DNA of 64,000 nucleotides from Ehretia macrophylla (lineage: Eukaryota > Streptophyta > Magnoliopsida > Boraginales > Ehretiaceae), in the NCBI GenBank assembly GCA_037974665.1, contig CM075767.1:7217501-7281500 (forward strand), written 5' to 3'. The translations under genes were made by a program, and so were the position numbers. Shown here one piece after another: positions 1-25,400 of this stretch (positions are counted from its first letter, which is position 1; each line of letters begins with the position of its first letter). Under the pieces are notes generated by a model. It made no database searches. It had not been told where the DNA came from and saw only the letters and a program-made list of their open reading frames with translations.

Positions 1-1245
1 AATAAAGAAGCACCACTAGTGCAAGCATTGATTTTAGCTCCATGGTTTCTTAGGGTAGTTTCATATGAAAGCATATATTACAACAGCAAAACACAAGGAG
101 CTCTCCTGGACATTATAGAAGCAGAATGTCGACTTTCTGCATTCGTTCTTCAATTTCACAGGTGTCTAGTGCATGTCGTAATCTTCGTCAAAATCAAATC
201 AAATTACGTCTTGTCTCACTAGTCGAGTCAATTATATCAATTTGGTGCCACCACTCATTCTGGTTGACAATTATCTCCTTAGTTAGCTTTGTATAAACGG
301 CATCTTATATTAGCGCCTCCTTCCAATTCATTTTAGACCTTCCTTCATAGATAGAGGACGCCTCAACAATAATATCATAATATCTCAAATACATATGAAG
401 AATCTGACGAATTGAAGCTGGTTGTTAGCTACCTAACGTCACCATCCTCATTTAACTAGGCTTGTGACCAAATAATACCAGGAATAGAATCCCTCAGACA
501 CAGACGAAGCTGATCTTCATTAGTTTTTCTCTAGTATTGTACGTAAACAACATATCTCCATTAAAACCCCATCTTCTGCATCTCCTCTCTGAAACAAAGC
601 CAGATATATACAAGTTCCAGTTAATGGGAGATACCTAATGTGAAGCCCTCTCAACTGACTGCATCACACCTCGTTCATTTTCCATCATCTCTGTAATATT
701 CCACAAATCAAATCAGAAAGCAAATATCATATAAACACCACCATAGCACACTATATTCACCATAGTTACCTGACAAGCCACAAATGCAGAAGCATGGTAC
801 AGTAGCGCACCCAAAGCAGGCTAAGCTATATCTACCAGTCCCTCAACATATCAACTAGGCGTGTTCATCTTCTGCGTGTCATCTTTCACGTGTGCGTTGC
901 ACCTTATAAGATCTCGAACTATTCTATCTGTCACGTCCCCAAGTTCAGCAAGGCCAAATCCAAGGACGTGATGTCGCGCGCCTATAAAAATTTATCCTCT
1001 TTAGCCTTCAAGGCTCAAATACCACAGAACCAGAAATTATATCTCGCAAAATATAAACCATTAGAACATCTAAGGCCTTGATAAATTAATGTGACACTTT
1101 AACTGTTTAACAAAAGTCCATAATCACGCAACTGGTACTAAGCTAGAACGTAACTCACAAAATTTTAGGCAAGGAACAATAACTATACAGCACGCTAAGC
1201 ACATAAATGCACGAAACCAATGGTTAATTGATATATAATACCAAA
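1..1245 (-). other. Left flank, decayed coding-like sequence
   Basis: This stretch lies outside the tandem repeat that begins at about 1,246. The minus strand has short coding-like runs in shifting frames, for example around 540-600 and 230-340, broken by many stops, so no gene model is supportable. It lies downstream, on the minus strand, of the unrecognised exon at 1,441-1,795 and could hold the remaining exons of that gene. I do not recognise a family, and an old transposon remnant is equally possible. Confidence 0.25.
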
Positions 1246-1440
1246 GAGAGACACCAAAGTTAGTGAGCAATATGTAAGGAAGAGGAAAATGAACTAGCAT
1301 GTTTCCTTGTTTCTCAATTAAAAAGTAAACAAGTTTGGCATGTTATTATATCTGAAGTAGTCCTTTTAGTCGTACATAAAATCCTTCCTTCAATCACATG
1401 TCAGAAGATTATATAGTACTCTTGCTTTTGAATTATTTAC

Positions 1441-1795
1441 CTCCAGAGCTTGCGTTCCAACTTGAATGTGGGTTAACATCATTGATAAATGATAACTTTA
1501 ATCTCTTGTTTCTTTCGCTCATTTGCACAATATGCCATTTCATACCATCAGCCTGCCTGTTCACCTGAAGCACTACGCAAGCTTGCAGCAAACCTGCATC
1601 TCCTACCCCCACGATCAAATCAACCTTCGGAATTTTAACCAAACCATATCTCTCCAACAACTCTCTTCATGATCTCCATCCTGATATGCACTCATAAAGC
1701 ATTCTCGAGCCTGCAACTTGTCCACAACAATCTCTTGCTTTCAAGTATAATGGTACTGGCTCTTCCATCTTCCTCTTTCCTCTATCTAGGAACAT
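1441..1795 (-). pseudogene. Unrecognised exon, copy 1 (H1)
   Basis: This is the same exon as in H2 and H3, with a donor-like GTAAAT after 1,441. A TGA at 1,668-1,670 replaces a Trp codon found in the other two copies, so this copy is broken. It lies about 390 bp downstream of the TAF1B stop and is read in the same direction. I do not recognise the family. Confidence 0.45.
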
Positions 1796-2180
1796 TTATC
1801 CAATACTCCAAGTCCAATCACAGTGTACTACCTGAGTGATTGTTCCTTTTCCTATCATTAGTTTTGCTAGCCTGTCACAGCACTGTGTTTCTGTGGAAAG
1901 AATTTTGGCAATCAAAAATATCAATGGCTAGAATAAGAAAGATAAGCACTAGGGTATTAAACTTGATTAATGTCGATGTGCATGTCGTAAAACTGCAGGC
2001 TGCTAAAAGACATCTTACTCTACGAATTCATGTGAGAAATCATACAGAAGACTTGAATCTCTATAATAATATAAACTTCTATTTTCAAAATAATTATCGT
2101 CTATGACAAATAGAACCTTTTCCATGTGGAGATATTCTCAGAGAAATTACAAATTTAATTTTGAGAATCTCGCAAACCAT

Positions 2181-4316
2181 TTACAGCATTTCGTTCGGCA
2201 TTGCTCGGATGTCACAATAACTATTAGGATGCTTCATAACCAAGTAACAATTCCTTCTCTCTTCCAGCTGCTGCAATCTTCTCTCAAAAGTCAACACTCC
2301 AATGTGCATCGTCCTAACATCAACTTGGGTGACCCTTGCACAAGATCTAAGTAAAATGTAGTAATCAGCATGGACAGCATATATATACACCCCTTCTTTC
2401 TTCTTCCTGGGATAGTAAACATACTCATTCTTCTTAACATTAATTCTTGGTGGAATATAACAAAACTTGTTCTCTTTCATATTACGTCTCAGCGAGCTTA
2501 TCGCTCTATCTCTATAACAGTCAACTGGAAGCTTCCCTTTACGTGCTGTATCTTGGTCCCTCTGGGAAGAGTTACTTTCATTCACAAAAGATGGTAAAGA
2601 GCAATCTCCATGAGGGGCACCATCCTCATACATGCTATCGCAAGTAAACCCACTATCCTGAAACTTTTTGTTTTGCTTTAGTACATGTTTAGCATCCTGT
2701 CTTGATCTCTTCTTGTGCAAGCCATTGACTTCTAAGGATCTGATTCCTTCTTTTTCTGATGGCTCAGAACCCTAAAATCAGCATCGCATGAGATGATTAA
2801 ACTTAAGTTAGTTTCAAGCGTATTATTTATATATATATATATATTTAACTAGAGTGTATCTGATGTTGACATCAATTTATACTAAACCACCTATAAATAT
2901 TGGTTATTTGGAATATCCAAAAACCATTTAGGATAACAAAGGAATAAGGAAATAGTACTATAATTTTCCGGAAAACAAAGTTATGGGGAAGAACTATTTT
3001 GAATCAAAACCCTTTCATAGCCTTGAAAAGCAAAGCTTAAGTCCTAAGTACAAATGCAGGAAGGATTATAAAGGAATAAAGAAGCAACTGGTTATGCTAG
3101 TGAGCCAAATTCAAAGACGAAACTTGCCAACCAATTTATTTCAAGGAATGACTTGAAGTGTCAATCACTAATTTTCTCTTTATCCTTTACCTTTTGCCAT
3201 TCATTTTTGGGTGTTGGGGGGAGGAGGAAGGGCAACTAAAATTTTGCCAAAAGTACCTTCTGGTTCTGATAAAAATTCCACAAGTCCTCTATTGTGTTTT
3301 GTTCTTCAAAATCCTCAAAAGATGGTTGTAATCCGGCGAAAACAATATCCTTACAGTTTTGAAGATATGATGACAAGTCTTTAGAACAGTCTGATAATCA
3401 GAAGCAAGCAATGTTACACTTCAAACAAGAGTATCCAAGCAATAAAGCAAACAAACAAACATATACTAGAATTATAGTTTTCGATGATCACCAAAAGTAT
3501 CATGGACCTCACTGAGCTTATTGTATTTTGCTTCAAGAATCTGTAGAAGCTCTACAACATCTAGTCCAGGATCCTCAATTTCCTTTGGTCTTTTCTCAGG
3601 CACCGAATCATCTGAAGACATGCCTTCTGAAGCATATTCAATATCAACTTTGAAAGTACCTTGTCTCTTTCCATTCAAGTTGGCCAGGTAAAATGAACTA
3701 CTAGAACTAGATAAGGTTGATTCTCATTTTCCATAACCATTAATGCCGTAAAGTATCCTTATTGCTACAATCAATATAGACATCACACAAACACGGGATG
3801 GAAGCCTAAACTCGTTAGCTGATAAATACAACTCTGGAGGCATAGACCATTCATAGATATGGGATGCCTGAGGGAGAATTTTCAAAACAGGAAGAGATAG
3901 TTCCTGCAAATAGCGGGAAGCTATACTATTGAAGTTCACTGGAGGCAAATTCAAACAAATTTTCTGCGCTATACAAGCCGCCATGGATTCCAATTTTTGC
4001 AAAGATCCTACTTGAGTAGGTCTGAACATGAGACTGGCACTGATGGGACATGCAGCAGAAGGAGGTCTTAGTTGTTTCTCAATTTCAACCAAAGCAGCAA
4101 AATATGGAATCTTTCCTTCATGGGTAGCCTTTAAAATATCTGTTGAAAGAATTGTTTCTCTTGAAACATGACAAATAAGAAAAGAGAAAGCTAAAGAATA
4201 AGATAATGGTATTGCACTTCTCAGAGATCTAAACCAGATCATTATTGCTCATTGACCAAGTACATTATGTAGTTCTTCACCTCATCTAACAATATGTTTT
4301 AGTTCATCCACATGCC
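2181..4316 (-). pseudogene. TAF1B: TAF1B-like exons 2-4, copy 1 (H1), broken
   Basis: Exon 2 is 3,492-4,316, exon 3 is 3,257-3,390 and exon 4 is 2,181-2,771; all splice sites are still AG/GT. Exon 4 is fully open here (FCYIPPRINVKK, HADYYILLRS, MHIGVLTFERRL), the only copy for which this is true. Exon 2 has TGA at 4,282-4,284 (shared with copy 2) and TGA at 3,724-3,726 (a Trp codon in the other copies). R1 lies immediately upstream, so there is no exon 1. Most stops across the three copies fit C-to-T or G-to-A changes, as expected of methylated, silent DNA; the Glu-to-stop change in copy 2 is a transversion. Confidence 0.87.
2826..2846. repeat. (AT)n microsatellite in TAF1B intron 3, copy 1
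   Basis: This short AT run lies in the intron between exons 3 and 4. Equivalent runs lie at about 9,652-9,664 in H2 and about 16,476-16,509 in H3. The H3 tract is the longest and accounts for most of the extra length of H3. Confidence 0.8.
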
Positions 4317-4675
4317 CTGTTATAGACATGTACATTAGGCCAAAAATACCATTGAACAAATGGTGCATAGAACAATACATTGTAACACACAATAAAATAG
4401 ATCACTCCTCAAAATCTAATATGTTTGGTTGTAACATCAAATCTACAAGTGATGGTAAATACATCAATAAGTGCACTCTGATTTATTTGATGACAATTTA
4501 CAGATTCAGAGGACAACTTATGTCTTTGAAGTATTGAAAACCCTAAGATTCATAAAAAGAGTAACAAGCATTACTTTGAATTTGATTATTACTAGTATCA
4601 TGTGAAAGCTACATCGTCCCATGAAAGTGCCACTAACAATGTATGTCAAAGAGCAGTCACTTTTGAAAAATACTC

Positions 4676-7600
4676 TGAAACACTAGATTCGTTCTAGCAA
4701 AACGTCATTGATACAAGGAAAACTTTAAATATTACAACTCTAGAATGCTAGAGAAGAAGTATACAATACTAGCTTTGTATTGATTGAGGTGTGTTTATTG
4801 AGCTTGGAAAGCTATCTATTTATAGGAGCTCTTAGGACTAAAGATTTTCTAAACTTCCTATGTGGAATAAAACAAACTAAATGGTACTATTCATAACAAA
4901 ACAATATTATTCATAACATAAGAAAAAATATGAAGGTTTTTTTGTTCTTCTTCTTGGGTTTGATTTTGTCAATCTTTTTCATCAACTCATTTGAATCATG
5001 TTTCACATCGATCCCACTTGAGAAAAACTCGCCATCGAGTTAATTTCTAGATATAAAGAACCTTCATGTGGATAGTAATCATATAAGTCAGCAACATTGA
5101 ATGTTGATGAAATTTCCCAATCATCCGGAAGATCAACCACATAAGCATTGTCATTGATCTTCTTTAAAATTTGGTAGGGACCATACTTCTTCGGATTCAG
5201 CTTATTGTAGGTACCCACTGGAATTCTTTCTTTCCTCAAGTAGACCATGACCATATCCCCTTTTTTAAATACCTTAACCTTTTTATGCTTATCAACTGCA
5301 GCCTTGTATTTGGCATTTGAGGCTTCCAATTTCTGTTTCACCTCTTCTTGAATAGACTGCACTTGTTCCGCCATTTTATTTCCTGCAATGCTCTTATCAG
5401 AGAATTTCGGCAGTTTAACCAAATCTAGAGCATGTTTTGGTACCTTCTTGTAGACAATGAAAAATGGTAATACTCCAGTTGAGCTGTGGATTGCACTATT
5501 ATAGGCAAACTCAGCTTGTGCAAGTGCAAAGTCCCATTGTCTCGACTTATCTTGGCAAATACAACGAATCAAATTTTCCAAGGTTCTGTTGGTTGCCTCG
5601 GTTTGACCATCAGTTTGAGGATGAGCTGTGCTGCTGAACTTCAAACTTGCATTAAAGTGCTTCCATAATGTGAGCCAAAAGTAAGATAGAAATTTAGAAT
5701 CTCTATCAGAAGTGATGGATTTTGGGACTCCATGGAGTCGCACAATCTCTTGGAAGAATAGTCTTGCAATGTGCACTGCATCTGAAGTCTTCCTGCAAGG
5801 GATGAAATGCGCCATCTTTGAAAATCTATCCACGACCACAAATATAGAGTCTACTCCTCTTTGGGTTCTTGGCAATCCCAAGACAAAATCCATAGACCAA
5901 TCTTCCCAAATATCTTCTCGTATAGGCAACGACATATAGTGTCCCGTGTTTTGTGTCTCGCCTTTTGCAGTTTGACAAGTTGGGCATTGTCTCACGAACT
6001 TGCCCACATCTCTTTTGATTTGTGGCCAGAAATACCTTTCATCCACACTTGCAATAGTCTTATCTCGTCCAAGATGTCCATCGAGTCCTCCTCCATACAA
6101 GTCTTGAATGATTTTCTCCCTTAAGGATGTCCTCGGGATGCAAAGTCTGTTACCTTTGAATAGGTAATCATCATGGACGTAGAAGTCTCCAGTTGGTTGC
6201 TTTGACAAGTGTTTATGCCAAACTTCATTAAAATCTTCATCATCTGGGTAGAGAGATCCTTCAGACATTCAAACCCTCCAACTTCACCACTTAAAGTAAC
6301 CAGCAAAGTTGCCCTTCTACTCAAGGCATCGGCAACACGGTTGGAAGCTCCTGATTTATGTTTAATAACATAAGGAAATTGCTCCATATACGAAGCCCAC
6401 CTTGCATGCATCTTGTTCAAATATTTTTGACTCTTGAAATGCTTCAAGGCTTCATGATCAGAATATATTACAAATTGATGTGGAATTAAGTAATACTCCC
6501 AATGTCGTAAAGTTTGAAGCACAATATATAACTCCTGCTCATAGGTTGACCATTTTTGACGTGCCTCACTAAGCTTTTCACTGTAGAATGCAACAGGTCT
6601 GCCTTCTTGAGATAATACTTCCCCAATACCAATTCCACTTGCATCACATTCCACTTCAAAAACTTTATCAAAATTCGGCAACACCAAGACAGTTGCAGTT
6701 GTCAACTTTTCTTTGATTTGTGCAAAACTTTTGTCAGTAGCCTCGTTCCACTAGAATTTCCCTTTCTTTAAGCAATCAGTGATAGGAGCAACGATACTGC
6801 TAAAATTCTTGATGAACCTCCTGTAAAATGTGGCTAAGTCATGAAAGCTTCTGAATTCAGTGATTGTCTTTGGAGTCGGCCAGTCTCTGATTGCTCGAAC
6901 TTTCTCATCATCAACTTGGATTCCTTTAGCACTTACAATGAAGCCCAAGAAAACTAAGCGATTTGTCATAAAGCTGCATTTTTTTAAGTTAACAAATAGC
7001 TTGCTGTCTTGAAGTACTTTCATAATCTGACACAGGTAGTCCACATGGATTCCTCCTCATATGTTAGTGATCTGCGATGTCGAACAAAACCATGTTGATA
7101 AGGATGTTGTGGTAGATTTCTAGCTCGTGGTTGTGCTTTGTTGATTCCTCGGTAGTTTAGGAGCTCTTCATCAGATTAATCTTCATAGGCTGGTTGCCTA
7201 TGACGAATTGCAAGGTCGTGTTGATTGATAGGTTGACCACGAGCATTTTCTCTGGCACGATTGATCCCACCATCGTCACGAGCCCTGTTGGCGTTTAGGC
7301 TTAAGTTGGAAAGGATGTCGCAAATCTCTCGGAGTTCACGGATCACATTTTCTTCTTGAGCTTGTATCGCCGCCCAAAGGGCCTCCATTCTTCGATCACT
7401 GTTAATAAGATAGCCGTCTTCGCCTCTGCTATGGCTGCTACCAGCAATGTTGATGTCGACGTTGCCACTATCTCCACCGCCATTGTTGTTCTTGGACGCC
7501 ATCTTCTCCGGCTTATAGGTTTGAAATTTAATCGGTCGAGTTTTTTGATGCACAGGATCCACTATACGTGGCAAGTGCAGAGCATACGACTTAATCGACC

Positions 7601-8064
7601 AATCAAGCTTTCTGATGCACAGGGTCCACTATTAGTGGCAAGTGCAGAGCATACAGCTCAATTACAACTACAACCCTCTAAACTAGGACTCTTGAACTTG
7701 GCTTCGGTGCCAACTGATGCAGAACGAAACGAAACACTAGATTCGTTCTAGCAAAACGTCCTTGATACAAGGAAAACTTTAAATGTTACAACTTTAGAAT
7801 GCTAGAGAGGAAGTATACAATACTAGCTTTGTATTGATTGAGGTGTGCTTAATGAGCATGGGGAGCTATCTATTTATAGAAGCTCTTAGGCCTTAAAATT
7901 TGCTAAACTTCCTATGTGGGATAAAACAAACTAAATGATACTATTCGTAACAAAACAATACTATTCATAACATAAGAAAAAATATGAAGGTTTATTTGTT
8001 CTTCTTCTTGTGTTTGATTTTGTCAATCTTTTTCATCAACTCCTTTGAATCATGTTCCGTATCA
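4676..8064 (-). mobile_element. Ty3/gypsy element R1, broken, between H1 and H2
   Basis: This is a short (3,389 bp) LTR retrotransposon fossil read on the minus strand. Its parts are LTRs at 4,676-5,010 and 7,730-8,064 (335 bp each, TG...CA at the outer edges), a gag-like remnant at about 7,176-7,574, reverse transcriptase remnant 6,751-7,044, RNase H about 6,300-6,705 and integrase about 5,003-6,268. The integrase carries an HHCC-type zinc finger (CPTCQ) and the core motif [10 protein letters not shown]. The leader next to the 5' LTR has a 67-bp direct repeat (about 7,546-7,660). It is internally reduced, with several breaks, and is not functional. The LTRs differ at about 25 of 335 positions, which suggests a few million years at usual plant rates. 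No matching target-site duplication flanks it. Confidence 0.9.
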
Positions 8065-8261
8065 GAGAGATACCAAAGTTAGTGAGCAATATGTAAGGAA
8101 GAAGAAAATGGACTATAGCATGTTTCCTTGTTTCTCAATGAAAAAGTAAACAAGTTTGGCATGTTATTATATATGAAGTAGTCCTTTTAGTCGTACATAA
8201 AATCCTTCCTTCAATCACATGTTAAAAGATTATATAGTACTCTTGCTTTTGAATTATTTAC

Positions 8262-8616
8262 CTCCAGAGCTTGCGTTCCAACTTGAATGTAGGCTAACAT
8301 CATTGATAAATGATAACTTTAATCTCTTGTTTCTTTCGCTCATTTGCACAATATTCCATTTCATACCATCAGCCTGCCTGTTCACCTGAAGCACTACGCA
8401 AGCTTGCAGCAAACTTGCATCTCCTACCTCCATGATCAAATCAACCTTCGGAATTTTAACCAAACCATATCTCTCCAACAACTCTCTCCATGATCTCCAT
8501 CCTGATATGCACTCATAAAGCATTCTCGAGCCTACAACTTGTCCACAATAATCTCTTGCTTTCAAGTGTAATGGTACTGGCTCTTCCATCTTCCTCTTTC
8601 CTCTATCTAGGAACAT
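8262..8616 (-). CDS. Unrecognised exon, copy 2 (H2), partial gene
   Basis: This is an open reading frame of about 118 codons from an ATG at 8,616 to a splice-donor-like GTAAAT after 8,262. The start is basic (MFLDRGKRKMEE), followed by LYECISGWRSWRELLERYG, LLQACVVLQVNRQADGMKW and NIVQMSERNKRLKLSFIND. It is downstream of TAF1B on the same strand. It is open in two of three copies, which suggests an exon of a second gene caught in the duplication; its other exons would lie left of 1,245 in copy 1 only. An acceptor-like AG next to the ATG means the start is not certain. No function is proposed. Confidence 0.45.
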
Positions 8617-9003
8617 TTATCCAATACTCCAAGTCCAATCACAGTGTACTACCTGAATGATTGTTCCTTTTCCGATCATTAGTAATTTTGCTAGCCTGTC
8701 ACAACGTTGGGTTTTTGTGGAAAGAATTTTGCAATAAAAAATATCAATGGCAAGAATAAGAAGGATAAGCACTAGGGTATTAAACTTGATTAATGTTGAT
8801 GTGCATGTTGTAAAACTGCAGGCTGCTAAAAGCCATCTTACTCTACGAATGCATGTGAGAAATCATACAGAAGACTTCAATCTATATTAAAATATAAACT
8901 TCTATTTTCAAAATAATTATCGTCTATGAAAAATAGAACCTTTTCTATGTGGAGATATTCTCAGAGAAGTTACAAATCTAATTTTGAGAATCTCGCAAAC
9001 CAT

Positions 9004-11137
9004 TTACAGCATTTCGCTCGGCATCACTCGGCTGTCACAATAACTATCAGGAGGTTTCATACCCAAGCAACAATTCTTTCTCTCTTCCAGCTGTTGCAAT
9101 CTTCTCTCAAAAGTCAACACTCCAATGTGCATCGTCCTAACATCAACTTGGGTGACCCTTACACAAGATCGACGTAAAATGTAGTAATCAGCATGGACAT
9201 CATATATATACACCCCATCTTTCTTCTTCCTGGGATAGTAAATATACTAATTCTTCTTAACATTAATCCTTGGTGGAATGTAACAAAACTTGTTCTCTTT
9301 CATATTACGTCTCAGCGAGCCTATCGCTCTATCTCTATACCAGCCCACTGGAAGCTTCCCTTTACGTGATGTATCTTGGTCCCTCTGGGAAGAGTTACTT
9401 TCATCCACAAGAAATGGTAAAGAGCAATCTCCATGAGGGGCACCTTCCTCATGCATGCTATCGCAAGTAAACCCACTATCCTGAAACTGTTTGTTTTGCT
9501 TTAGTACACATTTAGCATCTTCTCTTGATCTCTTCTTGTGCAAGCCATTGACTTCTAAGGATCTGATTCCTTCTTTTTCTGATGGCTCAGAACCCTAAAA
9601 TTAGCATCGCATGAGATGATTAAACTTAAGTTAGTTTCAAGCGTATTACTTTTATATATATATATTTAACTAGAGTATATCTGATATTGACATCAATTTA
9701 TACTAAACCACCTATAAATATTGGTTATTTGGAATATCCAAAAACCATTTATGATAACAAAGGAATAAGGAAATAGTACTGTAATTTTTCGGAAAACAAA
9801 GTTATGGGGAAGAACTATTTTGAATCAAAACCCTTTCATAGCCTTGAAAAGCAAAGCTTAAGTCCTAAGTACAAATGCAGGAAGGATTATAAAGGAATAA
9901 AGAAGCAACTTGTTATGCTAGTGAGCCAAATTCAAAGATGAAACTTGCCAATCAATTTATTTCAAGGAATGACTTGAAGTGTCAATCACTAATTTTCTCT
10001 TTATCCTTTACCTTTTGCCATTCATTTTTGGGTGTTGGGGGGAGGAGGAAGGGCAACTAAAATTTTGCCAAAACTACCTTCTGGTTCTGATAAAAATTCC
10101 ATAAGTCCTCTATTGTGTTTTGTTCTTCAAAATCCTCAAAAGATGGTTGTAATCCGGCGAAAACAATATCCTTACAGTTTTGAAGATATGATGACAAGTC
10201 TTTAGAACAGTCTGACAATCAGAAGCAAGCAATGTTACACTTCAAACAAGAGTATACAAGAAATAAAGCAAATAAACAAACATATACTAGAATTATAGTT
10301 TTCGATGATCACCAAAAGTATCATGGACCTCACTGAGCTTATTGTATTTTGCTTCAAGAATCTGTAGAAGCTCTGCAGCATCTAGTCCAGGATCCTCAAT
10401 TTCCTTTGGTCTTTTCTCAGGCACCGAATCATCTGAAGACATGCCTTCTGAAGCATATTCAATATCAACTTTGAAAGTACCTTGTCTCTTTCCATTCAAG
10501 TTGGCCAGGTAAAATGAACTACTAGAACTAGATAAGGTTGATTCCCATTTTCCATAACCATTAATGCCGTAAAGTATCCTTATTGCTACAATCAATATAG
10601 ACATCACATAAACACGGGATGGAAGCCTAAACTCGTTAGCTGATAAATACAACTCTGGAGGCATAGACCATTCATAGATATGGGATGCCTGAGGGAGAAT
10701 TTTCAAAACAGGAAGAGATAGTTCCTGCAAATAGCGGGAAGCTATACTATTGAAGTTCACTGGAGGCAAATTCAAACAAATTTTCTGCGCTATACAAGCC
10801 ACCATGGATTCCAATTTTTACAAAGATCCAACTTGAGTAGGTTTGAACATGAGACTGGCACTGATGGGACATGCAGCAGAAGGAGGTCTTAGTTGTTTCT
10901 CAATTTCAACCAAAGCAGCAAAATATGGAATCTTTCCTTCATGGGTAGCCTTTAAAATATCTGTTGAAAGAATTGTTTCTCTTGCAACATGACAAATAAG
11001 AAAAGAGAAAGCTAAAGAATAAGATAATGGTATTGCGCTTCTCAGAGATCTAAACCAGATCATTATTGCTCGTTGACCAAGTACATTATGTAGTTCTTCA
11101 CCTCATCTAACAATATGTTTTAGTTCATCCACTTGCC
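9004..11137 (-). pseudogene. TAF1B: TAF1B-like exons 2-4, copy 2 (H2), broken
   Basis: This is the same three-exon block as copy 3: exon 2 is 10,313-11,137 (825 nt), exon 3 is 10,078-10,211 (134 nt) and exon 4 is 9,004-9,594 (591 nt). Exon lengths and splice sites are preserved. It lacks exon 1; instead, R2 lies directly upstream. Stops: TGA at 11,103-11,105 (shared with copy 1, Cys in copy 3), TAA at 10,818-10,820 (Gln elsewhere) and TAG at 9,247-9,249 (Glu elsewhere). With no promoter, no exon 1 and three stops it cannot make the factor. Confidence 0.87.
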
Positions 11138-11496
11138 CTGTTATAGACATGTACATTAGGCCAAAAATATCATTGAACAAATGGTGCATAGAACAATACA
11201 TTGTAACACACAATAAAATAGATCACTCCTCAAAATCTAATATGCTTGGTTGTAACATCAAATCTACAAGTTATGGTAAATACATCAATAAGTGCACTCT
11301 GATTTATTTGATGACAATTTACAGATTCAGAGGACAACTTATGTCTTTGAAGTATTGAAAACCCTAAGATTCATAAAAAGAGTAACAAACATTACTTTGA
11401 ATTTGATTATTACTAGTATCATGTGAAAGCTACATCGTCCCATGAAAGTGCCACTAACAATGTATGTCAAAGAGCAGTCACTTTTGAAAAATACTC

Positions 11497-14400
11497 TGAA
11501 ACACTAGATTCGTTCTAGCAAAACGTCCTCGATACAAGGAAAACTTTAAATATTACAACTCTAGAATGCTAGAGAAGAAGTATACAATACTAGCTTTGTA
11601 TTGATTGAGGTGTGTTTAATGAGCTTGGGGAGCTATCTATTTATAGGAGCTCTTAGGCCTTAAAATTTGCTAAACTTCCTATGTAGGATAAAACAAACTA
11701 AATGATACTATTCATAACAAAACAATACTATTCATAACATAAGAAAAAATATGAAGGTTTATTTGTTCTTCTTCTTGGGTTTGATTTTGTCAATCTTTTT
11801 CATCAACTCTTTTGAATCATGTTCCGCATCAATCTTCTTCACTTGAGAAAAACTCGCCCTCGAGTTAATTTCCGGATATAAAGAACCTTCATGTGGATAG
11901 TAATCATATAAATCAGCAACATTGAAGGTTGATGAAATTTCCAATCTTCCGGGAGATCAACCACATAAGCATTGTCATTGATCTTCTTCAAAATTTGGTA
12001 GGGACCATAGTTCTTCGGATTCAGCTTGTTATAGGTACCCATTTGAATTCTTTCTTTCCTCAAGTAGACCATGACCATATCCCCTTTTTTAAATACCTTC
12101 ACCCTTTTATACTTATCAGTTGCAGCCTTGTATTTGGCATTTGAGGCTTCCAATTTCTGTTTCACCTCTTCTTGAATAGACTGCACTTGTTCCGCCATTT
12201 TATTTCCTGCAATGCTCTTATCAGAGAATTTCAGCAGTTTAACCAAATCTAGAGCATGTTTTGGTATCTTCTTGTAGACAATGAAAAATGGTGATACTCC
12301 AGTTGAGCTGTGGATTGCACTATTATAGGCAAACTCAGCTTGTGCAAGTGCAAAGTCCCATTGTCTCGACTTATCTTGGCAAATACAACGAATCAAAATT
12401 TCCAAGGTTCTGTTGGTTGCCTCGGTTTGACCATCAGTTTGAGGATGAGCTGTGCTGCTGAACTTCAAACTTGCATTAAAGTGCTTCCATAATATGAGCC
12501 AAAAGTAAGATAGAAATTTAGAATCTCTATCAGAAGTGATGGATTTTGGGACTCCATGGAGTCGCACAATCTCTTGGAAGAATAGTCTTATAATGTGCAC
12601 TGCATCTGAAGTCTTCCTACAAGGGATGAAATGCGCCATCTTTGAAAATCTATCCACGACCACAAATATAGAGTCTACTCCTCTTTGGGTTCTTGGCAAT
12701 CCCAAGACGAAATCCATAGACCAATCTTCCCAAATATCTTCTCGTATGGGCAACGACATATAGTGTCCCGTGTTTTGTGTCTCGCCTTTTGCAGTTTGAC
12801 AAATTGGACATTGTCTCACGAACTTGCCCACATCTCTTTTGATTTGTGGCCAGAAATACCTTTCATCCACACTTGCAATAGTCTTATCTCGTCCAAGATG
12901 TCCATCGAGTCCTCCTCCATACAAGTCTTGAATGATTTTCTCCCTTAAGGATGTCCTCGGGATGCAAAGTCTGTTACCTTTGAATAGGTAATCATCATGG
13001 ACGTGGAAGTCTCCAGTTGGTTGCTTTGACAAATGTTTATGCCAAACTTCATTAAAATCTTCATCCTCTGGGTAGAGATCCTTCAGACATTCAAACGCTA
13101 CAACTTCGCCACTTAAAGTAACCAGCAAAGTTGCCCTTCTACTCAAGGCATCGGCAACACGGTTGGAAGCTCCTGATTTATGTTTAATAACATAAGGAAA
13201 TTGCTCCATATATGAAGCCTACCTTGTATGCATCTTGTTCAAATGTTTTTGACTCTTGAAATGCTTCAAGGTCTCATGATCAAAATATATTACAAATTAA
13301 CGTAGAATTAAGTAATACTCCCAATGTCGTAAAGTTTGAAGCACAGCATATAACTCCTGCTCATAGGTTGACCACTTTTGATGTGCCTCGCTAAGCTTTT
13401 CACTGTAGAATGCAACAGGTCTGCCTTCTTGAGATAATATTGCCCCAATTCCAATTCCACTTGCATCACATTCCACTTCAAAAACTTTATCGAAATTTGG
13501 CAACACCAAGACAGGTGCAGTTGTCAACTTTTCTTTGAATTGTGCAAAACTTTTGTCAGCAGCCTTGCTCCACTAGAATTTTCCTTTCTTTAAGCAATCA
13601 GTGATAGGAGCAATGATACTACTAAAATTCTTGATGAACCTCCTGTAAAATATGGCTAAGTCATGAAAGCTTCTGACTTCAGTGATTGTCTTTGGAGTCG
13701 GCCAGTCTCTGATTGCTCGAACTTTCTCATCATCAACATGGATTCCTTCAGCACTTACAATGAAGCCCAAGAAAACTAAGCGATTTGTCATAAAGCTGCA
13801 TTTTTTTAAGTTAACAAATAGCTTGCTGTCTTGAAGGACTTTCATAATCTGACACATGTAGTCCACATGGATTCCTCCTCATATGTTAGTGGTCTGCGAT
13901 GTCGAGCAAAACCATGTTGATAAGGATGTTGTGGTTGATTTCTAGCTCGTGGTTGTGCTTTGTTGATTCCTCGGTAGTTTAGGAGCTCTTCATCCGATTA
14001 ATCTTCATAGGCTGGTTGCCTATGACAAATTGTAAGGTCATATTGATTGATAGGTTGACCACGAGCATTTTCTCTGGCACGATTGATCCCACCATCGTCA
14101 CGAGCCCTTTTGGCGTTTAGGCTTAGGTTGGAAAGGATGTCGCAAATCTCTCGAAGTTCACGGGTCACATTTTTTTCTTGAGCTTGTATCGCCGCCCAAA
14201 GGGCCTCCATTCTTCAATCACCGTCAATAAGATGGCCGCCTTCGCCTCTGCTATGGCTGCTACCAGCAATGTTGATGTCGACGTTGCCACTATCTCCACC
14301 GCCATTGTTGTTCTTGGACGCCATCTTCTCCGGCTTATAGGTTTGTAATTTAATCGGTCAAGTTTTCTGATGCACAGGATCCACTATACGTGGCAAGTGC

Positions 14401-14887
14401 AGAGCATACGACTCAATCGACCAATCAAGCTTTCTGATGCACAGGGTCCACTATTAGTGGCAAGTGCAGAGCATACAGCTCAATTACAACTACAACCCTC
14501 TAAACTAGGACTCTTGAACTTGGCTTTGGTGCCAACTGACGCAGAACGAAAGCGAAACACTAGATTCGTTCTAGCAAAACGTCATTGATACAAGGAAAAC
14601 TTTAAATGTTACAAATTTAGAATGCTAGAGAGGAAGTATACAATACTAGCTTTGTATTGATTGAGGTGTGCTTAATGAGCATGGGGAGCTATCTATTTAT
14701 AGAAGCTCTTAGGCCTTAAAATTTGCAAAACTTCCTATGTGGGATAAAACAAACTAAATGGTACTATTCATAACAAAACAATACTATTCATAACATAAGA
14801 AAAAATATGAAGGTTTATTTGTTCTTCTTCTTGGGTTTGATTTTGTCAATCTTTTTCATCAACTCCTTTGAATTATGTTCCGCATCA
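11497..14887 (-). mobile_element. Ty3/gypsy element R2, broken, between H2 and H3
   Basis: R2 (3,391 bp) is a near-identical sister of R1 with the same parts in the same order: LTRs 11,497-11,831 and 14,553-14,887, gag-like remnant about 13,998-14,330, reverse transcriptase 13,573-13,866, RNase H about 13,130-13,527 and integrase about 11,839-13,000. A purine-rich tract (aagtgaagaagat) precedes the 3' LTR. Several breaks are present. The LTRs differ at about 15 positions, and several of these are the same left/right differences as in R1, so R1 and R2 descend from one inserted element by segmental duplication. Like R1, it has no target-site duplication. Confidence 0.9.
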
Positions 14888-15084
14888 GAGAGACACCAAA
14901 GTTAGTGAGCAATATGTAAGGAAAAGGAAAATGGACTATAGCATGTTTCCTTGTTTCTCAATGAAAAAGTAAACAAGTTTGGCATGTTATTATATATGAA
15001 GTAGTCCTTTTAGTCGTACATAAAATCCTTCCTTCAACCACATGTTAGAAGATTATATAGTACTCTTGATTTTGAATTATTTAC

Positions 15085-15439
15085 CTCCAGAGCTTGCGTT
15101 CCAACTTGAATGTAGGCTAACATCATTGATAAATGATAACTTTAATCTCTTGTTTCTTTCGCTCATTTGCACAATATTCCATTTCATACTATCAGCCTGC
15201 CTGTTCACCTGAAGCACTACGCAAGCTTGCAGCAAACTTGCATCTCCTACCTCCACGATCAAATCAACCTTCGGAATTTTAACCAAACCATATATCTCCA
15301 ACAACTCTCTCCATGATCTCCATCCTGATATGCACTCATAAAGCATTCTCGAGCTTGCAACTTGTCCACAATAATCTCTTGCTTTCAAGTGTAATGGTAC
15401 TGGCTCTTCCATCTTCCTCTTTCCTCTATCTAGGAACAT
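15085..15439 (-). CDS. Unrecognised exon, copy 3 (H3), partial gene
   Basis: This is the third copy of the exon described at 8,262-8,616, open throughout, with a few amino-acid differences (for example LLEIYG for LLERYG, QADSMKW for QADGMKW). It is cut off from any further exons because R2 lies immediately downstream at 14,887. Confidence 0.45.
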
Positions 15440-15826
15440 TTATCCAATACTCCAAGTCCAATCATAGTGTACTACTTGAATGATTGTTCCTTTTCCGATC
15501 ATTAGTAATTTTGCTAGTCTGTCACAACGTTGGGTTTCTGTGGAAAGAATTTTGCAATAAAAAATATGAATGGCAAGAATAAGAAAGATAAGCACTAGGG
15601 TATTAAACTTGATTAATGTTGATGTGCATGTTGTAAAACTGCAGGCTGCTAAAAGCCATCTTACTCTACGAATGCATGTGAGAAATCATACAGAAGACTT
15701 GAATCTATATTAAAATATAAACTTCTATTTTCAAAATAATTATCGTCTATGAAAAATAGAACCTTTTCTATGTGGAGATATTCTCAGAGAAGTTACAAAT
15801 CTAATTTTGAGAATCTCGCAAACCAT

Positions 15827-16471
15827 TTACAGCATTTCGCTCGGTATCACTCGGTTGTCACAATAACTATCAGGAGGTTTCATACCCAAGCAACAATTCC
15901 TTCTCTCTTCCAGCTGCTGCAATCTTCTCTCAAAAGTCAACACTCCAATGTGCATCGTCCTAACATCAACTTGGGTGACCCTTGCACAAGATCGACGTAA
16001 AATGTAGTAATCAGCATGGACAGCATATATATACACCCCTTCTTTCTTCTTCCTGGGATAGTAAATATACTCATTCTTCTTAACATTAATCCTTGGTGGA
16101 ATATAACAAAACTTGTTCTCTTTCATATTACGTCTCAGTGAGCTTATCGCTCTATCTCTATACCAGCCCACTGGAAGCTTCCCTTTACGTGTTGTATCTT
16201 GGTCCCTCTGGGAAGAGTTACTTTCATCCACAAGAGATGGTAAAGAGCAATCTCCATGAGGGGCGCCTTCCTCATGCATGCTATCACAAGTAAACCCACT
16301 ATCCTAAAACTATTTGTTTTGCTTTAGTACATGTTTAGCATATTCTCTTGATCTCTTCTTGTGCAAGCCATTGACTTCTAAGGATCTGATTCCTTCTTTT
16401 TCTGATGGCTCAGAACCCTAAAATCAGCATTGCATGAGATGATTAAACTTAAGTTAGTTTCAAGCGTATTG

Positions 16472-16510
<39 letters not shown>

Positions 16511-17976
16511 CTAGAGTGTATCTGATGTTGACATCAATTTATACTAAACCACCTATAAATATTGGTTATTTGGAATATCCAAAAACCATTTAGGATAACA
16601 AAGGAATAAGGAAATAGTACTGTAATTTTCCGGAAAACAAAGGTATGGGGAAGAACTATTTTGAATCAAAACCCTTTCATGGCCTTGAAAAGCAAAGCTT
16701 AAGTCCTAAGTACAAATGCAGGAAGGATTATAAAGGAATAAAGAAGCAACTGGTTATGCTAGTGAGCCAAATTCAAAGATGAAACTTGCCAATCAATTTA
16801 TTTCGAGGAATGACTTGAAGTGTCAATCACTAATTTTCTCTTTATCCTTTACCTTTTGCCATTCATTTTTGGGTGTTGGGGGGGAGGAAGGGCAACTAAA
16901 ATTTTGCCAAAAGTACCTTCTGGTTCTGATAAAAATTCCACAAGTTCTCTATTGTGTTTTGTTCTTCAAAATCCTCAAAAGATGGTTGCATTCCGGCGAA
17001 AACAATATCCTTACAGTTTTGAAGATATGATGACAAGTCTTTAGAACAGTCTGGCAATTAGAAGCAAGCAATGTTACAATTCAAACAAGAGTATACAAGA
17101 AATAAAGCAAACAAACAAACATATACTAGAATTATAGTTTTCGATGATCACAAAAAGTTTCATGGACCTCACTGAGCTTATTGTAATTCACTTCAAGAAT
17201 CTGTAGAAGCTCTGCAACATCTAATCCAGGATCCTCAATTTCCTTTGGCCTATTCTCAGGCACCGAATCATATGAAGACATGTCTTCTGAAGCATATTCA
17301 ATATCAACTTTGAAAGTACCTTGTCTCTTTCTATTCAAGTTGGCTAGGTAAAATGAACTACTAGAACTAGATAAGGTTGATTCCCATTTTCCATAACCAT
17401 TAATGCCGTAAAGTATCCTTATTGCTACAATCAATATAGACATCACACAAACACGGGATGGAAGCCTAAACTCGTTAGCTGATAAATACAACTCTGGAGG
17501 CATAGACCATTCATAGATATGGGATGCCTAAGGGAGAATTTTCAAAACAGGAAGAGAGAGTTCCTGCAAATAGCGGGAAGCTATACTATTGAAGTTCACT
17601 GGAGGCAAATTCAAACAAATTTTATGCGCTATACAGGCCGCCATGGATTCCAATTTCTGCAAAGATCCAACTTGAGTAGGTCTGAACATGAGACTGGCAC
17701 TGATGGAACATGCAGCAGAAGGAGGTCCTAGTTGTTTCTCAATTTCAACCAAAGCAGCAAAATATGGAATCTTTCCTTCATGGGTATCCTTTAAAATATC
17801 TTTTGAAAGAATTGCTTCACTTGCAACATGACAAATAAGAAAAGAGAAAGCTAAAGAATAAGATAATGGTATTGCGCTTCTCAGAGATCTAAAATAGATC
17901 ATTATTGCTCGTTGACCAAGTACATTATGTGGTTCTTCACCGCATCTAGCAGTATGTTTTAGTTCATCCACTTGCC
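15827..17976 (-). pseudogene. TAF1B: TAF1B-like exons 2-4, copy 3 (H3), broken
   Basis: This copy is contiguous with exon 1 and so is the ancestral position. Exon 2 is 17,152-17,976, exon 3 is 16,917-17,050 and exon 4 is 15,827-16,417, with AG acceptors and GT donors in matching phases. Exon 2 carries the cyclin-fold-like core of the family (PLSYSLAFSFLICH, KIPYFAALVEIEKQL, LPPVNFNSIASRYL, MPPELYLSANEFRLPSRVCV). Exon 4 carries the C-terminal block FCYIPPRINVKK, HADYYILRRS and MHIGVLTFERRL, then a stop at 15,827. Breaks: TAG at 17,528-17,530 (a Gln codon in the other copies) and two TAG codons at 16,304-16,306 and 16,310-16,312. It keeps a Cys codon where copies 1 and 2 share a stop. Confidence 0.85.
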
Positions 17977-18335
17977 CTGTTATAGACATGTACATTAGGC
18001 CAAAAATACCATTGAACAAATGGTGTATAGAACAATACATTGTAACACACAATAAAATAGATCACTCCTCAAAATCTAATATGCTTGGTTGTAACATCAA
18101 ATCTACAAGTGATGATAAATACATCAATAAGTGCACTCTGATTTATTTGATGACAATTTACAGATTCAGAGGACAACTTATGTCTTTGAAGTATTGAAAA
18201 CCCTAAGATTCATAAAAAGAGTAACAAGCATAACTTTGAATTTGATTATTACTAGTATCATGTGAAAGCTACATCGTCCCATGAAAGTGCCACTAACAAT
18301 GTATGTCAAAGAGCAATCACTTTTGAAAAATACTT

Positions 18336-18633
18336 TGAAACAAATAATAACTAAAAAACAGAATGAATAAATGTGTTAAATCAAGAATCGGAAAGTGAAA
18401 AACCAAAAAGGGGTATCATGATTATGACTTAATTACTTCAGAATATGCCGAAGTATTGAGAGGAAGACGAAAGTAGTAAAGAACTTAATTATCCATTACT
18501 TAGAAAGCATAAACCCCAAAGTACAATTTAGACATGGTAAATCCCTCTGGCACCATATAGCAACACAACATATGACCAAGCACATTTAGTTCTGTACTAT
18601 ACACACATAAGTGGAATCAAGTGCATATAAAAT
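18336..18633 (-). other. TAF1B intron 1, single-copy part
   Basis: This is the AT-rich intron between exon 1 and the H3 boundary. It carries the native continuation of the H segment, tactttgaaacaaataat, which shows what stood at the right edge of H before R elements were joined there in the other copies. Confidence 0.6.
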
Positions 18634-19193
18634 CTTGATATTTAGTCTGTGATTTATGAAGGACCTGATCAGCCCACTCATCAGCCATAACCCTTGTGTA
18701 AGCCAAAAACCTCAACCAGATAGGTCCAACAAGGCCAATAATGATCGGGCTTGCACCAAAATTCTCAACCAAAGCCTTACACTGCATTTGGATCATAATA
18801 TGAAATCCCGTCACGTACCTCAACTTGATCACCGAATAATAATCTTCATAACTCAAATTCATTGGAGATGATCCGAAGTCACTTGGACCCATTGGCCCAA
18901 ATCCATCACCCACATTAACATCATCATCATGCATGGTTTTGCACGAATCAAATTGCCGATACTGTGAGAGCTTGACATGATAGATGGGCTCGGCTGGAGT
19001 AACAAGGGCCGGATGGACAAGGCGGGAACGACCACTGTACATACCACCATCACGAATATTACACAAGTCGTCCACGTCAATGGCTGCAGCAATGATATCA
19101 TCAGCTTGTGAGTTGCAAGTAGGACAGTAAAAAGTAGCCATCACTACTATCATCAAAGCCAATATTACCACAAACTTGGCATGTCGACTCCAT
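18634..19193 (-). pseudogene. TAF1B: TAF1B/Rrn7-like exon 1 (zinc ribbon), disrupted
   Basis: This is the N-terminal exon of the RNA polymerase I initiation factor TAF1B/Rrn7 (Arabidopsis MEE12 family), a nuclear TFIIB-like protein of the rDNA promoter complex. The ATG is at 19,191-19,193. It opens with CQVCG followed by YCPTC, the CX2C...CX2C Rrn7 zinc ribbon, then the family stretch LVENFGASPIIIGLVGPIWL and WADQVLHKS near the end. Two defects are seen. The frame that carries CQVCG and the frame that carries YCPTC differ by one base across a run of five T (minus strand, 19,129-19,133) where four would keep frame. The expected splice donor after 18,634 reads AT instead of GT, while the phase predicted from exon 2 (one base left over) fits exactly here. 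The T run could be a sequencing error; the donor change is less easily explained that way. Confidence 0.8.
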
Positions 19194-20470: not shown

Positions 20471-21240
20471 TATTGTATCACTTTGGGAATTCCAACAATT
20501 TGTTTAATTGATACATGACACACATACACAAAGGGCACACAGCACACGCTCATACACATGACGTTTGAATGGCCTTGTATCCATTCGGGTTAATTTCCGT
20601 TTATATTTTTAACGTTTGAGGTCGGTGACACTTAATACTCACGATCATCACTATCACCGTACACCACCACCGTACCCAAATCCCAAAACCAAAAATTTTA
20701 ACCAATAAAATCTCACTAATTCAATTAATGTTGTCGCATTTATACAAAATTCATTCGAGGTTTAACAGTTATGCTATTCAAAGCAAACTAATCACTTGAT
20801 ATTGGGTCACCTATATATATATATATATACACATCATGTATAAGTCCGCGAAATTGCAAGAAAAGTACAAAAATCCTCACCGTTCCCACTCTCTCTCTGG
20901 GGTCTCTCTCCCTGCAGCAGCTCTCTCTCTCTCTCTCTCCCGCTCTTTCCTCCTCTTGTACTATTATAACTTCACCTCTTTTTAACCCTTTATATTTTTA
21001 AAATTTGTGTTTAGACCCCTTTAGTTTATGTGCTGAACGTTCTAACCCCAACTTTTGAAAATATTGTCTCCACTAACAGGATTCTTTTTTGCTAGCCCCC
21101 ACTGATACTGTGTTTCACTACGGGATTTGTATAATTTTGACCAATAATTTTAAAAGAAATTACTTTTAAAGAGATATTTAGACCAAAAAGAAAAGAAAGA
21201 GAAACTTATTATTGGTTACTGTAATTTTTTAGGCACCACC
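20471..21240. other. Intergenic, with CT-rich tract
   Basis: No gene is visible. The stretch contains a short (AT)n run at about 20,811-20,830 and a CT/TC microsatellite at about 20,890-20,945, a type often seen near plant promoters. The rest is AT-rich spacer. Confidence 0.5.
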
Positions 21241-21530
21241 CATGTTAAGAATCATGAGTTTCCATCTTAAAATCAATTGGTGACAAGTGGAGTGACCCAA
21301 TATCTTATATGGCGGATTTGGAGTTGGTAATTTTTTGATATGGGACAAGTGTTATATTCTAACACTCCCCCTCACGTGTGACCCTTACCATGTTAAGAAT
21401 CCTGAGGTTCCATCTTAAAACCAATTGGTGACAAGTGAAGTGACCCAAGATCTTATATGGCGGATTTGGAGTTGGTGATTTTCTGATGTGGGACAAGTGT
21501 TATATTCTAACACTCCCCCTCACGTGTGAC
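21241..21530. repeat. 148-bp tandem duplication with LTR-like motifs
   Basis: Two head-to-tail units start at 21,241 and 21,389 (catgttaagaatc...), each ending near taacactccccctcacgtg. They differ at roughly ten positions. The motif ctccccctcacgtg and the terminal ttccaaca near 21,600 resemble the edges of small plant LTR or TRIM-type elements, but no full element can be delimited. Confidence 0.7.
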
Positions 21531-21599
21531 CTGATTTGAGAGGAGTTACACGTGAAAGAGTTTCTGATTTTTCGATGTGGGAAGAATGTATATTCCAAC

Positions 21600-22429: not shown

Positions 22430-25400
22430 TGTGACGCCCGAGATTTAGCCATGCATTTAATTACTGTTGCATCCCTTGTTTGCGCATTTACTTCTGTGCC
22501 TTACTAACTGACTTTTGTGACTACTATTCACTCCGTTTTTAAACTGCCTTCTATTAGTTAATTAGCATTTTTATTAAATCATATTAATTGTAAAAGTAGT
22601 GGTAAAAATGTACAATTGAACTAAAGGCGTTAGGAGGGCTCGTTTAGAAAATGATTTTTGTAGTTGAGTGAATAGTATTACGTAACATAACTTAGAGATT
22701 TAATTAGTTAGCCTATGTTTTACACTTTAGGCTCGTTTCTAAGCTATCTACGCACTTTTTAGGAGTCCACTTAAGCCCTACCATGACCCCACCTCAACTA
22801 AACTTCACCATATAAACAAATAAGCACCAAAACACAAAACAAAAAGAAAAAAATTGGGTAGAAATACTGTAGTAGGGCCGAGAGCAGCTAGGAGAGGAGA
22901 AAAACTGATTTTTGCTCTTCAACTCTTCGATTCAAGCCACTCCAAGCCTAGAGCAACTAGATTAGGGTGTGTGCAAGCTTCCTAGAGGCTCCTACGCGCA
23001 TTGGTAAGGGATTTCACGGCTTGTTTTTGCATTTCTAAATAGTTGCCAATTTTTTGATTTGTTGAAAATGTGATCAAATGCTATTGTATGAGTTATCTAT
23101 GCTAATATACCATCTATATGAATGCTAGAGAACACATTTGAGCCGTTGTTTCGCTTTTTAAACGGTTAGAATCGTTAATTTGAAATTTTGGGTGAATAAT
23201 GACGTTTTTCTAGGGTTTTGCGTAATTGCTTGAATTAGCTTGATTCAATGCTTCTAATAGATGCCTTAGGTGCTAGTGAAGGTAACCTAATAGCCCCGTG
23301 CACTTGCATTGTCCTTAAATCACTTAAAATGGAAAATAGCCGACTTTAATTTGGGGCTTCCGGGGTTAATGCGAATCCGGGTGGATTCGGGCTTCAATTC
23401 TATATAGTGATGCTTCGAAGGAAGGTCTGGGTTGTGTATTGATGCAGAATGGCAGGGTTATTACTTATGCTTCCAGGAAACTGAAGCCTTATGAACTCAA
23501 CTATCCGACTCATGATCTTGAGCTTGCAGCTATCATTCTTGCATTAAAGAAATGGCGTCATTATCTCTGGGGCAACAAATTTGAAATCTTTACAGATCAT
23601 AAAAGCTTGAAATATCTATTTTCACAGAAAGAGTTGAACATGAGGCAGAGGCGTTGGCTGGAATTACTTGAGGACTATAACTACACTATTAACTATCTTC
23701 CGGGAAAGGCCAATATTGTTGCTGATGCTTTGAGCCGAAAGGCTACTGTTGCTAGCTTGATTATCAAGAATTGGGAATTCATGGAAGAATTGTGCTCATG
23801 GAAGCCTAGTACTTCAAATTCTGGTATCCAATTCGCAAGTTTGCAGATTCAATCTCTGTTATTATCCAGGATTCGAGAAGCTCAACAGGCTGATCTTCAA
23901 TTGTTGAAAGTCTTAGAGAATTCTAAAGGGGGAGAGTCAGATTTCAAACTACACGACGATGGTATTCTTAAATTCAAGGGTAGAATCTGTATTTCGAATG
24001 ATCTAACTCTAAAGAAGGATATTCTTGCTGAGGCACACAGTTCTAGATATACTATCCATCCAAGCAGTACGAAAATGTATAAAGATTTAAAGCAGAATTT
24101 CTGGTGGAATAATATGACGAGACAAATTGCTGACTATGTTGCTCGATGCCTTACTTGTTAGAAAGTTAAAGCAGAACATCAGAGACCTGCAGGGTTGTTG
24201 CAGCCTTTGGCTATTCCAGTTTGGAAATGGGATCATATTACTATGGATTTCGTATCAGATTTACCGAGGTCTTCGAGGGGTAATGACTCAGTCTGGGTTA
24301 TTGTGGATAGACTGACCAACACTTCTCACTTCATCGCTAAAAAGAAGTCTGATTCTCTTGACAAGCTGGTAGAGTTGTATATTGAGAATGTTGTCCGACT
24401 TCATGGAATTCCAAAGAGTATCGTGTCAGATAGAGATCCCAGATTCACATCTCAGTTCTAGCAGAAGATTCAGAAAGCTTTGGGCATGACTTTGAGTTTC
24501 AATACAGCTTATTATCCTCAGACAGATGGTCAATCCGAGAGAACTATCTTAATCCTCGAGGATATGTTGCGGGCTTGTATTCTGGACTTCGGTAAGAGTT
24601 GGGAGAAGTATTTCCCACTAGCAGAGTTCGCCTATAACAATAGTTATCAAGCTACTATTGGTATGGCACCTTATGAGGCATTGTATGGGCGTAAATGTCG
24701 GTCTCCTCTCTACTGGGATGATGTTGGTGAAATGAAGACTATCGACCCTACTCTCTTACCTGAAATGAACAAAATGATTGATCATGTGCAGCTTATCAGG
24801 AAAAGAATGCTTACAGCACAGAGCCGGCAAAAGAGTTATGCAGATAGACGACGTCGTGATTTGAAATTTGCTGTGGGGGATCGAGTATATGAATGCTAGA
24901 GAACACATTTGAGCCGTTGTTTCGCTTTTTAAACGGTTAGAATCGTTAATTTGAAATTTTGGGTGAATAGTGACGTTTTTCTAGGGTTTTGCGTAATTGC
25001 TCGAATTAGCTTGATTCAATGCTTCTAATAGATGCCTTAGGTGCTAGTGAAGGTAACCTAATAGCCCCGTGCACTTGCATTGTCCTTAAATCACTTAAAA
25101 TGGAAAATAGCCGACTTTAATTTGGGGCTTCCGGGGTTAATGCGAATCCGGGTGGATTCGGGCTTCAATTCTAGTATCCTTAGGCTACCTAGGTGCTATA
25201 GATGCCTTGATATCCCTTGTTTGAAGCCCGGACAATGTACGTGTAGTTTAAAGCCATAAGAGGGAATTTGGGGCTTTCGGGGTAATCGCGGGCATTTGAA
25301 TGAGTTAGAGGGTTGAGAGGGTACCTTGAGGGTTAGTTAGAAGGTTGGGAGAGTTCCCTTTGAAAATGAAATCATTAACTTTGGTTTGGAAGAGAAATAG

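Follow-up and report, generated by a model that had tools for sequence, protein, structure and literature searches.

A probable dead-paralogue array of TAF1B/Rrn7 (MEE12) in Ehretia macrophylla, formed with one gypsy element and unequal crossover

Introduction

How does a gene come to carry its exons 2-4 three times, with a retrotransposon at each joint and a single exon 1 at one end? This question is raised by a locus on contig 4 of Ehretia macrophylla, which we analyzed in a window of 64,000 nucleotides (contig positions 7217501-7281500; positions below are those of the window unless another contig is named). Judged from its sequence, the gene is best identified as TAF1B/Rrn7, named MEE12 or CCG in Arabidopsis. 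An initial annotation had described the locus as the partial amplification of a single-copy essential gene and as a possible source of antisense or small interfering RNA (siRNA). Our analysis leads to a different answer, which we hold with considerable confidence: the locus is an array of a dead TAF1B/Rrn7 (MEE12) paralogue that grew with the help of one gypsy element and an unequal crossover, and the gene has a second locus on contig 18.

Results

Layout of the array

The triplication reported in the initial annotation was borne out. Exons 2-4 are present three times as direct repeats on the minus strand, and exons 2, 3 and 4 measure 825, 134 and 591 nt in all three copies. Self-comparison with BLAST, which covered window positions 1-24000 and 20 kb to the left, placed the repeated segments at 1245-4682, 8064-11503 and 14887-18342, which we call c1, c2 and c3 from left to right. 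The copies are 96.9% (c1-c2), 96.1% (c1-c3) and 97.0% (c2-c3) identical. Both joints are occupied by a gypsy copy bounded by long terminal repeats (LTRs), G1 at 4677-8064 (3388 bp) and G2 at 11498-14887 (3390 bp), which also bears out the description of a TAF1B/Rrn7-type gene that was partly amplified in tandem, with one element of about 3.39 kb between neighboring copies. Exon 1 (18634-19193, its ATG end placed by hand) adjoins only c3, the rightmost copy. The features are as follows.

1246-1250, no strand: GAGAG, the unoccupied target site on the outer border of c1; also present directly after the intact end of the LTR, at 8065-8069 and 14888-14892
1246-4682, minus strand: c1 segment of exons 2-4 (exons 3492-4316, 3257-3390 and 2181-2771)
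4677-8064, minus strand: gypsy copy G1, with an RNase H open reading frame at 6121-6705, an integrase open reading frame at 5003-6268 and a deletion joint near 7047
8065-11503, minus strand: c2 segment of exons 2-4 (exons 10313-11137, 10078-10211 and 9004-9594), a mosaic
11498-14887, minus strand: gypsy copy G2, with its left LTR at 11498-11831 lacking about 17 outer bp and its right LTR ending at 14887
14888-18342, minus strand: c3 segment of exons 2-4 (exons 17152-17976, 16917-17050 and 15827-16417)
18337-18342, no strand: GAAACA, the duplication joint, six bases common to intron 1 and the LTR; also at 4677-4682 and 11498-11503
18634-19193, minus strand: exon 1 of the contig-4 TAF1B/MEE12 gene, with the zinc ribbon and the start of the N-terminal cyclin fold, placed by alignment with contig-18 exon 1, a splice check and a genome search

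One gypsy insertion at both joints

G1 and G2 are 96.4% alike without gaps, and both are oriented in the direction of the gene. The RNase H frame (scanned at 6124-6705) matched RT_RNaseH at 101.8 bits (cut-off, 24.8), and the integrase frame (scanned at 5006-6268) contained the zinc-binding H2C2 and rve core domains. The placement of RNase H upstream of integrase is the gypsy order. Relatives of the LTR are common in the genome (1.58 Gb in 20 contigs): there were 597 candidates, and all 40 that were scored matched, at least three of them being the array's own. In three family members that we fetched, the LTRs begin and end with TG..CA and are 98.9-99.7% alike, and all three are flanked by 5-bp target duplications (ATAAG, CATCC and AACTA, read by eye from the edges). 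The array copies thus resemble Ty3/gypsy retrotransposons in domain order and family structure, but they are unlike them in carrying an internal deletion of about 2.1 kb and one LTR whose outer end is short by about 17 bp. A fragment of another gypsy-type element, with RNase H and integrase zinc-binding domains, lies at 23439-24161 on the plus strand.

The losses are the same in both copies. G1 and G2 lack an identical interior, 2134 bp when compared with two of the three full-length members and 2135-2136 bp when compared with the third, and they lack the same outer ~17 bp of one LTR. Among the 40 scored of 381 genome candidates, the deletion joint was spanned by G1 and G2 only. Because the LTR trim point and this private deletion are shared, G1 and G2 are one insertion that was duplicated, and independent insertions at each joint were ruled out on the same grounds.

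The joints suggest how the first duplication may have arisen. At 8065 and 14888, GAGAG directly adjoins the intact LTR end and leads into the 3' flank of the exon segment, while the outer edge of c1 reads A-GAGAG-ACACC without a break and without an LTR. The trimmed end of the LTR is joined to intron 1 at GAAACA, and intron 1 has a GAAACA of its own at 18337-18342. The 20 kb left of the window, window positions 1-1244 and positions 18344-64000 held no further match to the array's element. Since the outer site of c1 is empty, GAAACA is native to intron 1 and no other copy of the element lies nearby, the first joint would have connected an element located 3' of one template with intron 1 of an element-free template or tandem copy. 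Recombination between gypsy copies flanking exons 2-4 was rejected, as neither outer edge has a match to the element, and so was retroposition, as the introns are kept.

In the order of events that we propose, insertion of a single gypsy element some 0.9 kb past the stop codon would have come first. The outer end of its LTR, shortened by about 17 bp, would then have been joined through the 6-bp microhomology GAAACA to intron 1 of an insertion-free second template, yielding a locus of the form exon 1, exons 2-4, gypsy, exons 2-4.

A hybrid middle copy

We compared the three copies at the 131 informative sites, defined as those where either c1 or c3 differs from the other two copies. On the gene-5' side of position 9463, c3 was odd at 50 sites and c1 at 18, and on the gene-3' side of position 9453, c3 was odd at 13 and c1 at 50. 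A single switch within exon 4, at 9453-9463, gave a maximum chi-square of 36.7, which none of 2000 permutations reached. The middle copy therefore resembles c1 on the 5' side of the switch and c3 on the 3' side. Divergence follows the same pattern: 5' of the switch it is lowest between c1 and c2 (1.85%, versus 3.36 and 3.42%), and 3' of the switch it is lowest between c2 and c3 (2.30%, versus 4.69 and 4.98%), as a crossover predicts. The minority sites (18 and 13) are consistent with changes that arose later in c1 and c3 alone.

Such a mosaic is what a single unequal crossover within exon 4 would leave behind. Out-of-register pairing of the first and last segments of exons 2-4, followed by exchange within this exon, would have added one unit of gypsy plus exons 2-4 and left the middle copy a hybrid; all copies would have decayed afterwards, c1 and c2 without an exon 1. 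The array shares in-register direct repeats, a common joint and a middle copy that is a hybrid of the outer ones with other tandem arrays grown by unequal crossover. It differs from them in that a transposon end and microhomology form the original joint, in place of paired homologous elements on either side.

Decay of the contig-4 copies

Each of the three copies contains three in-frame stops, whose positions we derived by hand from the exon coordinates: 4284-4282, 4251-4249 and 3726-3724 in c1; 11105-11103, 10820-10818 and 9249-9247 in c2; and 17530-17528, 16312-16310 and 16306-16304 in c3. The stop at codon 11 (11105-11103 in c2) is common to c1 and c2 only, and it falls on the side of the switch where c2 resembles c1. 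Compared with its contig-18 homologue, exon 1 carries one extra base within the zinc ribbon, near 19129-19134 (frameshift position found by hand), and the homologue of its splice donor is AT at 18633-18632, where contig 18 has GT. Given this donor and the frameshift, a normal message joining exon 1 to exon 2 would not be expected even from c3; the statement that only c3 connects to exon 1 holds for position only. The contig-4 locus thus lacks the unbroken frame and the full set of splice signals of a functional gene, and with three stops per copy, a frameshifted exon 1 and a lost donor, all three copies look dead.

The ratio of nonsynonymous to synonymous substitution rates (dN/dS) agrees with this picture. 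Among the copies it was 0.80 (c1-c2), 0.63 (c1-c3) and 0.82 (c2-c3), values that do not differ from 1 (Fisher p = 0.57, 0.15 and 0.60, respectively), versus 0.32-0.36 for any copy against contig 18 (Fisher p = 5e-15, for c3 only). The dS between c1 and c3 is 0.060, about one-tenth of the 0.54-0.58 that separates contig 4 from contig 18. This combination suggests long-term constraint, with none detectable since the array formed, which is the pattern of a dead paralogue.

The direction of the repeats also bears on the proposed antisense or siRNA source, which the layout does not favor. The copies are direct repeats, and the element encodes RNase H and integrase on the same strand as the gene, so read-through from an LTR would be sense to the gene. 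Because copies and element all point the same way, nothing in this arrangement would predict antisense RNA or favor siRNA from a dead array. An inverted repeat as siRNA source was rejected as well, since window positions 1-24000 contain no inverted pair of at least 200 nt (seed, 20).

A second locus on contig 18

Homologous exons lie on the plus strand of contig 18 (84394082-84397804), where they align with the contig-4 gene exon by exon at 77-79% DNA identity over three main pieces. The proposed identity of the gene comes from this locus, because its exon 1 and exon 2 pass the Pfam cut-offs for Zn_ribbon_RRN7 (35.3 bits; cut-off, 27.1) and Rrn7_cyclin_C (34.6 bits; cut-off, 22.4). The Rrn7_cyclin_N match of the exon-1 piece, at 14.9 bits, was under its cut-off of 24.1. 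The contig-4 copies of exon 2 are 68-69% identical to the contig-18 exon 2 that carries the domain match, and the zinc ribbon of contig-4 exon 1 matches that of contig 18 at 24 of 36 residues (E = 0.0013). A direct Pfam search with the window's open reading frames over exon 1 and c1 exon 4 returned no family at E values up to 0.01, and a PDB search with exon 2 returned no match at E values up to 1.

Genome searches with exon 2, the exon-1 body, exon 4 and the zinc ribbon found loci on contig 4 and contig 18 only, with one match to the exon-1 body on each. The gene is consequently not single-copy, as the initial annotation had assumed, and contig 4 holds its more decayed member. While the contig-18 homologue passes two domain models of the TFIIB-like TAF1B/Rrn7/MEE12 (CCG) factors, the contig-4 copies are broken, and c1 and c2 have neither exon 1 nor zinc ribbon. 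The array is not a segmental duplicate shared with contig 18: a tblastx comparison (E up to 1e-10; 372 rows) of 90 kb around the contig-18 gene with 84 kb here, restricted to 1-kb cells with a best score above 80, found only the gene itself in common.

In Arabidopsis, the MEE12 mutant is zygotically lethal, and the protein is reported to act with RNA polymerase II (PMC7865254). At the contig-4 locus, where the three copies and exon 1 are broken, the designation as an essential gene does not apply, and the contig-18 locus should be the working gene. As for an intact TAF1B elsewhere, which the initial annotation had proposed to look for, exons 2-4 on contig 18 are open, but exon 1 has an in-frame TAA at codon 37 (84394190-84394192 of contig 18), directly behind the zinc ribbon, after which the frame is open to the end of exon 4. 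This TAA may be a polymorphism, a base error or a recent loss, or may reflect an unrecognized intron or a gene start further down. At both loci exon 1 is disrupted in the zinc ribbon or immediately after it, by an extra base on contig 4 and by the TAA on contig 18. Because contig-18 exons 2-4 are nevertheless open, there is a slim chance that the plant makes a TAF1B without zinc ribbon from a downstream ATG, after losing the part that usually contacts the polymerase.

Other features of the window

To the right of exon 1, a tandem pair of 144 bp, 94% alike and spaced at 148 bp, lies at 21240-21531, and the stretch 22430-23402 is matched, at 75% identity, by an inverted relative lying some 40 kb to the left. 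Across 24000-64000, the only listed open frame of at least 220 amino acids was one starting at 23439. Rfam gave no match in the whole window.

Discussion

Several observations weigh against a dead array built from a single insertion. No stop is common to all three copies, and for this reason the gene may have been intact at the first duplication. All three copies retain the AG/GT splice signals of exons 2-4 and have equal exon lengths, which is mild decay for a pseudogene. Divergence between LTRs is unequal in the two gypsy copies (7.5% versus 4.2%), which makes it a poor clock for the insertion. Divergence between G1 and G2 (3.5-3.6%) also exceeds that of the pairs c1-c2 (1.85%) and c2-c3 (2.30%) on their matching sides of the switch, which should be of the same age. 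We ascribe this excess tentatively to faster mutation of a (methylated) transposon; the 71 transitions and 22 transversions between the two interiors would fit such a bias.

The order of the first events is less secure than the nature of the array. A serious though less probable history begins with tandem duplication of the whole gene or a longer segment; the gypsy element would have entered the inner 3' flank later, a deletion running from the end of the LTR to a point within intron 1 would have removed the spacer and the second exon 1, and the same unequal crossover would have followed. This course leads to the same dead array, explains the empty outer site without an exchange between different alleles and suits the six-base joint just as well, because GAAACA could mark a deletion as readily as a duplication. 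It needs one extra event, however, and, unless the transposon mutated faster, predicts LTRs younger than the copies, whereas the LTR values are not below the 3.9% between c1 and c3. As the LTRs are not younger, we lean moderately towards end joining of a template that carried the insertion to an empty one. It is improbable that the third unit is an assembly artefact, in which the merging of two haplotypes of an array with two units mimics a crossover. In an outcrossing plant, alleles could differ by the 1.9-3.6% seen between the units, and joining haplotypes at exon 4 would yield the same mosaic. Assemblers tend to switch in long identical runs, however, and here the switch falls amid closely spaced differences (9442, 9445, 9453, 9463, 9483 and 9489); the unit size of 6.8 kb, shorter than usual long reads, argues in the same direction.

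Least credible of all is a functional array, in which the exon cassettes would be used alternatively from exon 1 or would give truncated C-terminal-domain proteins. The preserved exon lengths and splice sites would suit it, and there is a precedent in the Arabidopsis MEE12CTD protein, which consists of the C-terminal part only (PMC7865254). Such a function is difficult to reconcile with three stops per copy, mostly different ones, with the frameshift and lost donor of exon 1, and with dN/dS values among the copies that do not differ from 1.

A dead array formed with one gypsy element and an unequal crossover involves a mechanism that is already known; this is ordinary growth of a pseudogene array, well preserved. 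Its wider interest is limited to whether the contig-18 locus makes a full protein. For genome annotation it serves as a warning, because three TAF1B genes may be called where probably none works. As a clean worked example, it keeps the steps legible in the sequence, from a one-sided transposon joint with microhomology and an empty outer site to a hybrid middle unit.

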